This document shows, one piece after another, positions 16,332 through 21,106 of a DNA stretch of 64,000 nt. A program made the position numbers and the translations under genes. The notes under the pieces are model-generated. The model saw only the letters and a list, made by a program, of their open reading frames with translations, searched no databases and was not told where the DNA came from. The DNA lies in the NCBI GenBank assembly GCA_016742175.1, contig JACVCH010000002.1:248001-312000 (forward strand). Reading direction: 5' to 3'. Numbering within the stretch: position 1 is the first letter of the stretch; every line of letters starts with the position of its first letter. The DNA is from Rhizobiaceae bacterium. Its GTDB lineage: Bacteria; Pseudomonadota; Alphaproteobacteria; Rhizobiales; Rhizobiaceae.

Positions 16332-17546
16332 TCAGCGCGCAGCGGCGACGTGCCGGCGTCCGCGCACCGCAAGAAGGCCAAGCGCTGCAAGGCAAACCGC
16401 GCTGACCGGGAAAACGATCCAGTTCAGCATCTCCCAGCCGGCAAGATTGTAGACGAGACCGGACATGAAGGAGGCGAAGGCGACCGTCGAGAACAGCACG
16501 AAATCGTGGAAGCCGAGCGCCCTGCCCTTTTCGGACGGATGGTAGCTCTCGGCGACCATCGCCGTCGACCCGATGAAGCCGAAATTCCAGCCGACGCCGA
16601 GAAGGACGAGCGCCGTCCAGAACTGCCACAGCTCGATGCCGGAGAGCGCGACGACGGCGCAGCCGAGCAGCAGGACAAGTCCCGCCGCCATGATCTTCTC
16701 CTTGCCGAAGCGGGCGATCAGCTTGCCGGTGAAGAAGCTCGGCGCATACATCGCCATGACGTGCCAGGAAATTCCGAGCATCGCCTGGTCGGTCGAGAAG
16801 CCGCAGCCTACCATGGCGAGCGGCGCGCCGGTCATCACGAAGCTCATCAGCGCATAGGTGCCGACGCCGCAGAGGAGGCCGGTGACGTATTTGGGCTGGC
16901 GGATGATTTCGCCGAGCGGCCGTGCCGGCATCTGCGGGACGGCCGCAGCCTGGGCCTCCGACTGCGTTCGCGGCAAGGCCGACAGGATCAGCGCACCGAC
17001 GGCGGCGATGCCGAGCACCGAGGTGAAGGTGCCGGCGAACATGACGGGCGCGAGCAGCTCGCGGGTGAAGATAACGATCTGCGGGCCGATGATCGCGGTC
17101 AGCACCCCGCCCGCCAGGACGAAGGAAATCGCCCGCGCCTTGAACTCGACGGGCGCGGATTCGGCCGCCGCGAAGCGGAACTGCTGGACGAAGGCATTGC
17201 CGACCCCGATCAGCGCGAGACCGGCTGCGAAGAGCCAGAAATTCTGAGCGAAAAGTGCAAGGGTCGCGATCAGGCCGCCGCTGGCCGTCATGACTGTGCC
17301 GGTCATGAAGCCCAGCCGCAGCCCGAGCCGCTTCAGGACCAACGCAGCCGGAATGGCGCCGAGCGCGACGCCGACGGTGAAGCCGGTGACGGGAGCAGTC
17401 GCAAGGCTCTTGTCGGCGCCGAGGAGATAGTAGCCGGCAAGGCCGCCGACCGAGATGGCGATGGGCGCGGCCGACCCGACGATTGCCTGCGCGGCGGCGA
17501 GAACGATCGCCGTGCGCCTTGCGTCGCGGGTCGAGGCCGTCGTCAT
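16332..17546 (-). CDS. MFS transporter, candidate riboflavin permease (RfnT-like)
   Basis: A 404-residue major facilitator protein with 12 predicted membrane segments and little outside them. Its ATG overlaps the stop of nusB by 4 nt, so it is the last gene of the riboflavin operon. A family of alphaproteobacterial MFS proteins located in or near riboflavin genes, named RfnT, has been linked to riboflavin uptake. Position and topology suit that role here, but I cannot align the sequence to confirm it, and another metabolite or drug is possible. No terminator is obvious in the 141-bp gap after it. Confidence 0.65.
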
Positions 17547-18049
17547 GCCTTCGGCGTTCCGCCCCTGCCTTCGTTGCGAATTCGCCGCGCGACGCGGTCG
17601 AGCACGGCGTTGACGAGCTTGGGCTCTTCCTCCGTGTAGAAGGCCTTGGCGATGTCGACATATTCGGTGACGATCACCGCGACCGGCACGTCGGCACGCT
17701 TCATCAATTCATAGACGCCGGCGCGCAGGATGGCGCGCAATGTCGAATCGAGGCGCGAGAGCGGCCAGTCGTCGGTCAGCGCCTGCCGGATCACCGGGTC
17801 GATCGTCTTCTGGTCCTCTACGACGCCCGACAGGATCGCACGAAACCATTGCGCATCGGCCTCGCGATAGGTCGCGCCGTCGACTTCCTTGCCGAGCCTG
17901 TAGGCCTCGTATTCGGCCGATATCTCCAGAAGCCCCGTGCCGGCGACGTCCATCTGGTAGAGCGCCTGCACGGCCGCGAGCCGCGCCGCACCGCGCTTGT
18001 TGGCATGGCGGATTGGCGGCGTGGCCGGAAGGTCGTCCGTCTCGCTCAT
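17543..18049 (-). CDS. nusB: Transcription antitermination factor NusB
   Basis: A 168-residue all-helical RNA-binding protein of the rRNA antitermination complex, acting with NusE (S10) at boxA. The N-terminal core reads [22 protein letters not shown], and the C-terminal segment [37 protein letters not shown] is the standard family end. Start and stop overlap ribH upstream and the MFS gene downstream by 4 nt each. The ribH-nusB pairing is widespread in bacteria. Confidence 0.95.
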
Positions 18050-18510
18050 CGCGACGCCCCTGCGAGACGCTTCCTCGTTTCAACCATCGTCAGCGCCGCA
18101 CGCGCGGCAAAGCCGCCCTTGTCGCCCTCGTTGCGGCGCGCGCGCGCCCACGCCTGGTCGTCGTTCTCGACGGTCAAAATGCCGTTGCCGATCGCCAGCG
18201 ATTCATTGACGGAAAGGTCCATCAGCGCGCGGCAGGATTCGTTCGCGACGATGTCGAAATGATAGGTCTCGCCCCGGATCACGCAGCCGAGCGCGACGAA
18301 CGCATCATAGTCCGCGCCGCCCGCATCCGCGCCGTCGAGCGCGAAGGAAATGACGGCCGGGATTTCGAGCGCTCCGGGCACGGTGACGACATCATAACTC
18401 GCGCCGGCGGCATCGAGCGCGGCCCTGGCGCCATCGAGGAGCGCGTCGGCCAGATCGTCATAGAAGCGCGCTTCGACGATCAGAACTTTGAGGGGTTCCT
18501 GATGGGGCAT
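18046..18510 (-). CDS. ribH: 6,7-dimethyl-8-ribityllumazine synthase
   Basis: A 154-residue lumazine synthase subunit, the enzyme that makes the direct precursor of riboflavin. The active-site strings are [35 protein letters not shown], with the catalytic histidine, and [16 protein letters not shown]. It overlaps nusB by 4 nt. The gap to the 36-residue membrane-protein gene upstream is 80 nt, the only sizeable break among these riboflavin genes. Confidence 0.95.
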
Positions 18511-18590: not shown

Positions 18591-18701
18591 TCAGCGCTTC
18601 AGCGAGCGCTCGTGCAGGCGCACGGCGATGTAGGCGCCCACAACGATGATTGCAGGCAGACCGAGCGAGGTAAACCAGAACATGGGATCGCTGAAGCTCA
18701 T
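18591..18701 (-). CDS. 36-residue single-pass membrane micro-protein in the riboflavin operon
   Basis: The frame from the ATG at 18701 encodes a 36-residue protein: a short polar start, one hydrophobic helix (WFTSLGLPAIIVVGAYIAV, residues 9-27) and a basic tail, HERSLKR. Its ATG overlaps the stop of the 77-residue gene by 4 nt (ATGA), the same coupling used along this operon, which supports it as a real gene although it is below usual annotation limits. I do not recognise the family. The positive tail predicts an N-out, C-in orientation. Function is unknown. Confidence 0.6.
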   Translation of the reverse strand: MSFSDPMFWFTSLGLPAIIVVGAYIAVRLHERSLKR

Positions 18702-18931
18702 GGTTTCAAACCCTTCAAAACTTGCCTTGCCAACATATGTAGGGATGCCGTCGCAGTCATCCAGCCAGCAGCCGTGAATACAAGCCAAAATCCGATCGGC
18801 GACGAGAAGCTTATCACACCATAGAGATATCCAGCCAGCGGCGTTGCTACGCCCACCGTGAAACATGCCGTCGACGCGCGATCGAGCGCGTTGGCCAGCA
18901 GCTTCGTCCGTTCGTTGTCGACGAGGCTCAT
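18698..18931 (-). CDS. 77-residue two-helix membrane protein in the riboflavin operon
   Basis: The frame encodes 77 residues with an N-terminal basic, polar stretch (MSLVDNERTKLLANALDRAS), two hydrophobic helices at about residues 21-40 and 44-66, and the basic end ARQVLKGLKP. Its ATG overlaps the ribE stop by 4 nt and its stop overlaps the start of the 36-residue gene by 4 nt. This double coupling in the middle of the rib genes argues strongly that it is expressed. I do not recognise a named family. A role near flavin synthesis or transport is only suggested by position. Confidence 0.7.
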   Translation of the reverse strand: MSLVDNERTKLLANALDRASTACFTVGVATPLAGYLYGVISFSSPIGFWLVFTAAGWMTATASLHMLARQVLKGLKP

Positions 18932-19533
18932 TCGTCGTGCGCTTCCATCAGGCGCGCGGCATAGCGCGCCATGGTGTCGACCTCGAGATTGACGTGGTCG
19001 CCGACCTGCCGCGCGCCCCAGGTCGTCACGCCGAGCGAATGGTGGATCAGGAGGACGTCGAAGAGGTCGCCGTCGACGCCGTTGACGGTGAGCGACGTGC
19101 CGTCGAGCGCGACGGAGCCTTTCGGCGCGATGAATTTCGACAGGGCGCGTGGCGCGCGGAGGCGAAAACGCACGGCGTCGCCTTCGTCGATCCGCTCGAG
19201 GATCTCGGCCATGCCGTCGACATGGCCGGAGACGATGTGCCCGCCGAGTTCGTCGCCAATTTTCAGGGCGCGTTCGAGGTTGAGGCGGGAGCCGACCTGC
19301 CAGTCGCCGGCTGTGGTCAGGCGCAGCGCCTCTTCCCACGCCTCGACCTCGAACCAGCGGGCATCATCTTCAGGAAGGGCGACGACGGTCAGGCACACGC
19401 CGGCGCAGGCGATCGAGGCGCCGATCGCGATGGTCGCCGGATCGTAGACCGTGCGAATGCGCAGGCGGATGCCCTGGTCGAGCGGCGCGATGGCCGCGAT
19501 CTCGCCGATATCGGTGACGATTCCAGTGAACAT
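18928..19533 (-). CDS. ribE: Riboflavin synthase alpha chain
   Basis: A 201-residue enzyme with two lumazine-binding barrel repeats that dismutates 6,7-dimethyl-8-ribityllumazine to riboflavin. The N terminus [12 protein letters not shown] is diagnostic. Each repeat shows the pattern SIACAGVCLTVV in the first half and SVALDGTSLTVNGVDGD in the second, and HIVSGHVDG lies between them. Start overlaps the ribD stop by one base; the stop overlaps the next small gene by 4 nt. Confidence 0.95.
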   Translation of the reverse strand: MFTGIVTDIGEIAAIAPLDQGIRLRIRTVYDPATIAIGASIACAGVCLTVVALPEDDARWFEVEAWEEALRLTTAGDWQVGSRLNLERALKIGDELGGHIVSGHVDGMAEILERIDEGDAVRFRLRAPRALSKFIAPKGSVALDGTSLTVNGVDGDLFDVLLIHHSLGVTTWGARQVGDHVNLEVDTMARYAARLMEAHDE

Positions 19534-20639
19534 CAGTCGATCCTTACATATTCGAAGCAGAAATCGCCGCCGAACACATCGCGGCGGAGGAGGCGGAAGC
19601 CCGTCGGGATCGCGGCCGGATCGACCGGCGATGCAATCCCGCCCTCCCCGACCGGCTGCGGGCCGACGAAGAGAACCAGCCGGCCGACCAGTCCTTCGGC
19701 CAGGAATTGCCGCGCGGTTTCCGCGCCGCCCTCGACGAGTAGTGTCAGGACGCCGCGCGCTGCCAGGTCCTCGAGGAATTCCGGCAGGGCGATGCGGCCT
19801 TCGTGCTCGTCGCAGGCGATGAAGCCGACGCCGAGTTTTTCGAGCGTCGCGCGACGGGTGGCCTCGGCGTCGATCGCCGTCGCCAGAAGAACCGGCGTCT
19901 CGCGCGCGCTCGATGCGAGCTTCGACGCGGGCGAGAGCCGGGCGTCGCGGTCGAGGACGATGCGGATCGGCGAGCGTTTTTCGAGCCCCGGCAGGCGGCA
20001 GGTGAGTTCGGGATCGTCGGCCAGTGCGGTGCCTATACCCACGAGGATCGCGTCGCTTTCGGCACGCAGGCGATGGACCTGGCGACGCGAAACCGGCCCG
20101 GTGATCGCAAGCTGCCCCGCGCCTTCCCGGCCGATCATTCCGTCGGACGAAATGGCAAGCTTGAGAGTCACTTCCGGGCGTTTGCTCAGGGATCGAGTCA
20201 GGTAACCGTTGAGGAGATCGGCCGCGTCATCGGCCAAGATTTGGGGCGTCACGTCGATCCCGCCGGCTTCGAGGATCGCGTAGCCCTTGCCCGAAACGCG
20301 CGGATCGGGATCGGCCGCCGCGCCGACCACGCGGGCGACGCCGGCGCGCACCAGCGCCTCGGCGCAGGGCGGTGTTCGGCCATGATGGGCGCAAGGTTCA
20401 AGCGTCACATAGGCGGTGGCGCCCCGCGCGTCGTCGCCCGCCACCGCCAGCGCCTCCGCCTCGGCATGGGGCCTGCCGCCGATGGCGGTGATCCCGCGCC
20501 CCACGATCCGCGGCCCCTCGCCGTCGTTGCGCACGATCAGCGTTCCGACCGAAGGGTTGGTCGACGTCAGGCCCAGATTGCGGCGCGACAGTCGGATGGC
20601 GGCGGCCATGAAGCGGCGATCGGCCTCGCCGGCGCTCAT
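19533..20639 (-). CDS. ribD: Bifunctional diaminohydroxyphosphoribosylaminopyrimidine deaminase / 5-amino-6-(5-phosphoribosylamino)uracil reductase
   Basis: A 368-residue two-domain enzyme for the second and third steps of riboflavin synthesis. The N-terminal deaminase holds the zinc motif, with [11 protein letters not shown] and [18 protein letters not shown]. The C-terminal reductase, from about residue 145, contains AISSDGMIG and [23 protein letters not shown]. Its ATG overlaps the nrdR stop by 4 nt. Confidence 0.95.
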
Positions 20640-21106
20640 TCGCGCGCGGCGTCCTCGTCGCTCTTCAACTCGCCGAGCAGGTCCTGGAAATCGCGCGCTT
20701 CGCGGAAATTCTTGTAGACGGAGGCGAAGCGCACATAGGCGACGTCGTCGATGGATTTGAGCGCATCCATGACCAGTCGGCCGATCTCGTCGGAAGGGAT
20801 TTCCGTCTCGCCGGAACTTTCGAGCTGGCGCACGATGCCGGTCACGGCGCGCTCGATTCGCTCGGGCTCGACGTTGCGCTTGCGCAGCGCGACCTCGACC
20901 GAGCGCATCAGCTTGTCGCGATCGAACGCGACCTTGCGGCCCGACCGCTTGACGACGACGAGGTCGCGAAGTTGCACGCGCTCGAATGTGGTGAAACGCC
21001 CGCCGCAGACCGGGCAGACGCGCCGACGGCGAATGGCCTGCCCGTCTTCGGCAGGCCGGGAATCCTTCACCTGGGTGTCTTCAGACTGGCAATAGGGGCA
21101 GCGCAT
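20636..21106 (-). CDS. nrdR: Transcriptional repressor NrdR
   Basis: A 156-residue repressor of ribonucleotide reductase genes. The N-terminal zinc ribbon is [17 protein letters not shown] with a second pair in [11 protein letters not shown], followed by an ATP-cone: [26 protein letters not shown]. It binds NrdR boxes in response to ATP or dATP. The gene begins 36 nt after glyA and overlaps ribD by 4 nt, a common alphaproteobacterial arrangement. Confidence 0.96.

Follow-up and report, generated by a model that had tools for sequence, protein, structure and literature searches.

In the 64,000-nt stretch of DNA analysed here (the window), two small genes, s77 and s36, lie between ribE and ribH, and together they form a module of patchy occurrence in Alphaproteobacteria. 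From sequence evidence we propose, with confidence somewhat short of even, that s77-s36 is a mobile toxin-first unit of the toxin-antitoxin or toxin-immunity kind in which both partners would be membrane proteins. This proposal draws on the gene order, a promoter-like element for s36 and the loss of s77 with s36 kept, as well as on arrays and orphans of antidote-like s36 genes, carriage by mobile elements and, at some loci, a regulator that looks cognate. Our confidence is held back because a competing explanation, in which s36 is a useful gene in itself, accounts for part of the data and because a role in phage exclusion is also in play. As we picture it, s77 would insert in the inner membrane and be harmful there, for example as a leaky or pore-like protein, and s36, made in excess from an internal promoter, would bind s77 within the membrane and neutralise it; extra and orphan s36 genes would give protection from s77 of other types. 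The window's copy of the module would have landed behind ribE, where it is probably carried by transcription of the rib operon, and it need not serve riboflavin synthesis.

Two coupled genes between ribE and ribH

The gene order on the minus strand of the window is nrdR, ribD, ribE, s77, s36, ribH, nusB and an MFS gene, as follows.

20636..21106, minus strand: nrdR, host operon
19533..20639, minus strand: ribD, host operon
18928..19533, minus strand: ribE, riboflavin synthase, host gene directly upstream of s77-s36
18928..18931, minus strand: ATGA overlap of ribE and s77
18698..18931, minus strand: s77, 77 codons, membrane protein predicted to form a helical hairpin, gene 1 of the module (homologues; dN/dS 0.068; model pLDDT 89.9)
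18698..18701, minus strand: ATGA overlap of s77 and s36
18591..18701, minus strand: s36, 36 codons, one predicted membrane helix and a basic tail, gene 2 of the module (dN/dS 0.098)
18046..18510, minus strand: ribH, lumazine synthase, host gene downstream of s77-s36
17543..18049, minus strand: nusB, host operon
16332..17546, minus strand: MFS protein, host operon, with no tracking of the s77-s36 module

The 77- and 36-codon frames, with their 4-nt ATGA overlaps, lie on the minus strand between ribE and ribH as originally predicted, and the further 4-nt overlaps quoted at nrdR/ribD (20636-20639), ribH/nusB (18046-18049) and nusB/MFS (17543-17546) were likewise found. The ribD/ribE junction is TGATG, a 1-nt overlap, and s36 and ribH are unjoined, with 80 nt between them.

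That both frames are real, coupled genes was borne out by dN/dS and by frame conservation behind s77 homologues. Pooled over 10 non-overlapping pairs, used out of 26 qualifying pairs in a set that left out L051, L115, L117, L020, L095 and L063, dN/dS was 0.068 for s77 and 0.098 for s36. Of 92 length-intact s77 homologues, 91 are followed where expected by a frame of at least 18 codons, which in 84 cases starts exactly at the ATGA. Two of these 91 downstream frames were listed as 20 residues long: in L020 this reflects a nonsense codon in s36, and in L095 an open s36 overlaps the end of s77 by 13 nt, our script having chosen the wrong start. Among 70 loci from named genomes, an s36 profile matched in 67, the exceptions being L067, where a longer divergent frame takes its place, L078 and L109. 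The module therefore consists of two small, adjacent and co-oriented genes that are kept together, as in toxin-first toxin-antitoxin loci.

The membrane character claimed for both proteins also agrees with our analysis. An AlphaFold2 model of s77, built from 56 sequences, predicts a helical hairpin (helices 2-36 and 46-73; mean pLDDT 89.9), and s36 has, by its sequence, one hydrophobic stretch followed by a basic tail. No model in Pfam, NCBIfam, PHROGs or PADLOC covers s77: the best match of 56 members to these libraries was phrog_36725 (one member, E 0.0012), followed by NF045714 (one member, E 0.0016). Searches of the PDB yielded a best E of 0.83 with the s77 model, a fold search that is uninformative for a hairpin, and no chain at E 5 with the s77 sequence profile. 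For s36, 38 members were compared with Pfam, and the window copy alone also with NCBIfam; the best Pfam match was a membrane hairpin model (E 0.0031), and none was to a DNA-binding family. No paper on the s77-s36 pair was found in the open-licence literature.

Two families touched by s77 members were considered and rejected. SLATT (PF18181), a two-helix effector domain predicted to form pores according to PMC7159879, shares the two-helix hairpin with s77, but no match exceeded the family cut-off: 8 of 56 members touched the model at E 0.1 or lower (best 0.0045), three scores were 13-17 bits against a cut-off of 26.3, and the profile-profile probability was 0.2%, with just 3 SLATT sequences. 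MnhG/PhaG (PF03334) was touched by 3 of 56 members (best E 0.008), with scores of 13-17 bits against a cut-off of 23.4 and a profile-profile probability of 2.5% over 17 columns.

Both genes are near or below common annotation length limits. It had been anticipated that they are easily missed, and 9 of 10 plasmid records with s77 list no feature under it, in a gene table that is itself incomplete.

Occurrence at the rib site and elsewhere

We rejected s77-s36 as a component of the riboflavin operon, as the module is not kept between ribE and ribH beyond one clade. It was present at 4 of 30 ribH loci (own genome included), all in the window's genus, which includes Aliihoeflea sp. 2WW, A. aestuarii and Mesorhizobium sp. 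YIM 152430; the ribE-ribH interval was cleanly resolved in 22 of these 30 loci, while three lacked a ribE within reach and five had a large gap. The conservation of the pair between the two genes, as first envisaged, is thus confined to a single genus. Measured by the criterion set with the original prediction, which counted frameshifts in close relatives against it, s77 is damaged in two of the four carriers, by a nonsense codon in G003 and a frameshift near its end in G004; s36 is open in all four. A fifth member of the genus (G001) has neither gene, yet a stretch resembling the start of s77 remains, by eye, after its ribE. Among the 70 named loci, six follow ribE, in Aliihoeflea and Mesorhizobium. 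The rib site is apparently one landing place of the module, at which the module decays.

The original prediction had proposed that s77 and s36 serve riboflavin metabolism, either within an exporter or by partnering the terminal MFS protein. The operon position and the overlaps favour such a role, but the module is missing at 26 of 30 ribH loci, is decaying or lost within the genus and sits behind unrelated genes elsewhere, and we regard a flavin function as scarcely credible. The proposed MFS partnership found no support either: A. aestuarii carries the module yet gave no MFS match, and of the 26 ribH loci lacking the module 14 do have one. Whatever the function of the pair, small frames in essential operons can be passengers.

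Homologues of s77 were found in 10 of 61 relatives searched, own genome included. A profile search placed s77 in 45 of 397 genomes of the order (22 of 142 genera), and in thin samples of the class and the phylum in 3 of 385 and 9 of 299 genomes, respectively, the own genome being counted in each; none of the carriers in the phylum sample (299 genomes) lay outside the order. The 70 named-genome loci were collected via the stretch NER[TI]KL[LAM]AN, a scan that picks up closer relatives only. Most belong to Hyphomicrobiales, and the other carriers include Paracoccus- and Falsigemmobacter-type bacteria, Acetobacteraceae and further members. A single genome holds up to 12 s36 matches. Ten plasmid records carry s77, as do 19 IMG/VR contigs, some of them near-copies, all 19 of which have an s36-like frame behind it. 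In its patchiness, mobile carriage and several copies per genome, s77-s36 behaves as toxin-antitoxin systems do.

Genes found upstream of the module elsewhere include MurB, CtaA, a phage terminase, a trypsin/PDZ protease, an M24 peptidase, a Cys/Met enzyme, a tetrapyrrole methylase, enolase, FliM, an aminotransferase and YceI. When one locus was counted per upstream-gene cluster, with crude, script-made gene calls in the flanks, the upstream gene was co-oriented with the module in 26 of 37 loci, 20 of these lying within 120 nt, and the downstream gene in 16 of 37. The module thus often stands at the end of other transcription units.

We scanned 27 upstream genes, hand-picked with a preference for small and viral ones and thus not a random sample. 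Six encode DNA-binding regulators that score above the Pfam cut-off (Arc in L229, L231 and L240; HTH_3 in L055 and L090; HxlR in L056), and three are weaker candidates (L241 and L235 below the cut-off, L047 by the label of its record). Small HTH regulators related to one another lie directly upstream in a Methylobacterium plasmid (L047:2228-2497), Paracoccus (L055:5570-6001), Roseomonas (L090:5738-5983) and a viral contig (L241:2520-2774); in three of the four the overlap with s77 is 4 nt, and the remaining one stops 14 nt short of s77. Weaker relatives were located further upstream in L059 and L245, and in the other loci none was detected at E 1e-4 (94 loci searched). A viral contig also has a HigB-type toxin gene (L244:4470-4808) about 470 nt downstream of the s77 start. 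In Devosia riboflavina (L062:4688-7589) and in the viral loci L238 and L239, the module is located between genes for the terminase large subunit and the portal protein, a site that possibly belongs to a gene transfer agent or prophage.

Carriage of this kind bears on two phage-related explanations. Small two-helix exclusion proteins are known in phages, and s77 and s36 could be small membrane proteins expressed with a repressor that act in prophage or plasmid superinfection exclusion or in phage defence, blocking DNA entry or killing the infected cell. Consistent with this are the 19 viral-contig loci, the Arc/RHH or HTH genes directly upstream in the viral loci L229, L231, L240 and L241 (and, weakly, L235) and the terminase-portal position in three related loci. 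However, no known anti-phage defence protein was recognised, the best PADLOC match being one of 56 s77 members at E 0.049 and the best PHROGs match the single member at E 0.0012; the window protein had no match at E 0.01 in 50,697 phage records, and at least 11 of the 27 upstream genes are ordinary chromosomal ones. We consider exclusion or defence improbable, though to be kept in mind. Rather less probable still, to the point of being very unlikely, is a class II holin or antiholin-like lysis pair derived from phage. The combination of small two-helix and one-helix proteins, the viral contigs and the terminase-portal site in three related loci would suit such a pair, but no convincing lysis family emerged (two s36 members touch Phage_holin_3_6 at E of at least 0.055), and among the upstream genes scanned, several of which matched nothing, those matched to a family included no endolysin.

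A promoter-like element inside s77 and its parallel in toxin-first loci

The 3' end of s77, just before s36, contains the consensus TTGGnTTTT, TACATTT and GGCAAGA, followed by the s36 ribosome-binding site. The spacing from TTGGnT to TACATT is 17 nt; both consensus and spacing were derived from 56 non-redundant of 74 TACAT-carrying modules, with near-identical loci counted once. The window copy comprises the following features.

18759..18764, minus strand: -35-like CTGGAT, weaker, with its first base off the family consensus TTGGnT
18736..18742, minus strand: -10-like CTACATA after a 17-nt spacer, the -10-like box proper being 18737-18742; codes for the Leu-His pair of s77, the Leu by a rare codon
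18725..18731, minus strand: GGCAAGG, window copy of the conserved GGCAAGA; putative region in which the s36 transcript would be expected to start
18711..18715, minus strand: AAGGG, likely s36 ribosome-binding site inside s77

From these positions, the leader of the s36 transcript would be about 29 nt long. The alphaproteobacterial housekeeping promoter is CTTGAC-17-CTATAT; the s77-internal element resembles it in sequence and could give s36 its own mRNA.

Codon usage argues strongly that the element is constrained as DNA, beyond its coding for amino acids. The Leu of the Leu-His pair is encoded by CTA or TTA in 76 of 84 modules (near-identical loci included), while these codons make up 2.55% of Leu codons in the flanking genes (16,300 Leu codons) and 7.8% elsewhere in s77. 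A third-base test conditioned on the amino acids was applied to 68 non-redundant of 87 modules, leaving out L051, L115, L117, L095 and those lacking a His codon at this position. At codon 0, before the His, the third base was A in 59 of 68 modules versus 1.9 expected (chi-square 1729), and T predominated at codon -8 (54 of 68 versus 10.3 expected) and codon -6 (49 of 65 versus 11.0). Third-base constraint was also strong at codons +4, +5, +9, +10 and +13 across the 68 modules, whereas codons -24 to -9 deviated far less (chi-square at most 24.5); s77 is richer overall in A/T third bases than its flanks, so weak excesses outside the element are not all signal. The element is a clear case of DNA that is at once coding sequence and promoter-like signal across wide divergence.

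TACAT stands in register in 74 of 92 modules and in 12 of 19 viral-contig loci. Against reading the element as a promoter are its absence from some modules and the degraded -35 in the window, where a strict scan with the consensus of E. coli type found no promoter in the window copy. Across the window as a whole, CTACAT occurs 16 times versus 4.5 expected from dinucleotide shuffles, perhaps a codon effect.

An arrangement of this kind has precedent in toxin-first type II toxin-antitoxin systems. Expression of mqsA is driven by two promoters that lie within the toxin gene mqsR (PMC6918082); other toxin-first loci are named in PMC4803016, and Bradyrhizobium higB has a strong start site inside the gene according to PMC5082802. 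The toxin-first loci mqsRA, hicAB, higBA and rnlAB are like s77-s36 in that two small genes lie adjacent, occur patchily on mobile elements and lose gene 1 while gene 2 stays, and a signal for gene 2 inside gene 1, a promoter in mqsRA and promoter-like in s77-s36, is common to these two. Unlike all four, s77-s36 would have membrane partners with no recognisable DNA-binding or RNase domain, and its regulator, when present, is a separate upstream gene.

Most type II antitoxins carry a DNA-binding domain. A type II antitoxin with an autoregulating DNA-binding domain was accordingly rejected as a description of s36, in which no such family was found (38 members, Pfam). Rfam searches at gathering score gave no family in six carriers, and thus no known type I RNA antitoxin, and the window stretch gave one chance-level match (E 0.46).

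Loss of s77, retention of s36 and s36 arrays

The 70 named loci comprise 57 with a length-intact s77, 11 in which s77 is broken or internally deleted and s36 is open, and two others, L078, with neither gene intact, and L109, cut by the contig end. The 11 lesions are of several kinds: small indels in L068, L089, L101, L114, L117 and, close to the end of the gene, L051; deletions in L115, L116, L118 and L119; and a nonsense codon in L057. Sequencing error may account for a small indel seen in one assembly, and is less easily invoked for the deletions and the nonsense codon. Since s77 is about twice as long as s36, twice the lesions are expected in it, and at this 2:1 ratio the chance of an 11:0 split is near 1%, a figure weakened by adding the contrary case, L020, in which s77 is intact and s36 has the nonsense codon. 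The lesions of L116 and L118 may represent one shared event. L020 also speaks against a strict antidote model, unless the shortened s36 is functional or s77 has no activity at this locus. In nine pairs with s77 broken or absent, two of them poor comparisons, s36 had a dN/dS of 0.226 versus 0.098 in intact pairs, which suggests that constraint on s36 after loss of s77 is relaxed but not neutral. Two of the deleted loci have unusual structures: in Rhizobium sp. JAB6 (L115:6001-6246) deletions join the first half of s77 in frame to s36, and in a Mesorhizobium MAG with s77 mostly deleted a second s36-like frame follows the first and reaches the contig end (L116:3626-3682).

As s36 remains open after s77 loss, s36 may simply be a useful gene. 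It could be a one-helix regulator or subunit of a widespread membrane enzyme or transporter, with s77 as a losable accessory, the internal promoter serving s36 and the arrays supplying dosage or specificity. Its retention when s77 is broken or gone, the purifying selection on it and its own promoter-like element are all in keeping with this. A housekeeping role, however, fits poorly with occurrence in 45 of 397 genomes and up to 12 s36 matches per genome, and as poorly with subfamily-mixing arrays and plasmid and viral carriage. Moreover, no enzyme recurs among the 27 upstream genes bar the tetrapyrrole methylase, found in two Phyllobacterium at one orthologous site, and the s77 dN/dS of 0.068 indicates that s77 is no mere accessory where intact. 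On balance we hold this explanation to be unlikely, if the most serious of the competitors.

Nine of the 70 named loci gave more than one s36 match. An orthologous site, with upstream genes 85% identical and both flanks aligning, is shared by Phyllobacterium leguminum (L088) and P. phragmitis (L105). In L088, one s77 type precedes four s36 copies in the order A, B, C and a degenerate A; in L105 the s77 is of another type and the s36 order is B, A, C (the letters being labels of this analysis). The s36 adjoining each s77 is of the kind found with that s77 type elsewhere, and the s36 that goes with the other s77 type lies behind it. Further arrays consist of s77 and three s36 copies (L161) or s77 and two (L158, L156 and L162).

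We compared the similarities of six extra copies from four arrays and of two orphans, a comparison without L051, L115, L117, L020 and L095 and without the extra copies of L157 and L162. The second s36 of L155 (the same locus as L088), L156 and L158 has a similarity of 0.14-0.19 to the first s36 of its own locus and is nearest to the s36 of modules with another s77; L155c, by contrast, has its closest match in the first s36 of its own locus, and in L161 the extra copies share the subfamily of the first one. Similarities of s77 and s36 are correlated (r = 0.76), as is expected from linkage alone, and the Phyllobacterium site would also be accounted for if s77-s36 pairs moved as units.

The window's genome holds an orphan s36 (G000:C16:221146-221250; L165:2147-2248) that is preceded, by eye, by a stretch like the last codons of s77 and has a counterpart in G004. 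A plausible history is repeated arrival of the module, with an older s77 lost and its s36 retained.

Arrays and orphan immunity genes, together with small protective membrane proteins, are features of immunity to pore-forming bacteriocins and polymorphic toxins. The s36 arrays and orphans resemble these, and the difference is that s77 has just ~70-80 residues. Returning to the toxin-first unit proposed above, it is possible, though we hold this with distinctly less confidence, that s77-s36 represents an undescribed all-membrane toxin-antidote class of Alphaproteobacteria in which a hairpin toxin of 70-80 residues would be encoded by a sequence that also served as promoter for its antidote gene, the antidote being a one-helix peptide some 30-45 residues long. 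Such antidotes would be gathered from other modules, giving tandem arrays and orphans that outlive their toxins, and the window's genome would hold two antidote genes. If s77 is toxic and s36 its antidote, the pair would be a toxin-antitoxin type with recognition between membrane helices, for which many natural pairs and arrays would be at hand for studies of specificity.

At its C-terminus, s36 ends in PGE, PAE or PSE in 47 of 91 peptides; the window copy lacks this ending, and the orphan copy of the window's genome ends in PGK.
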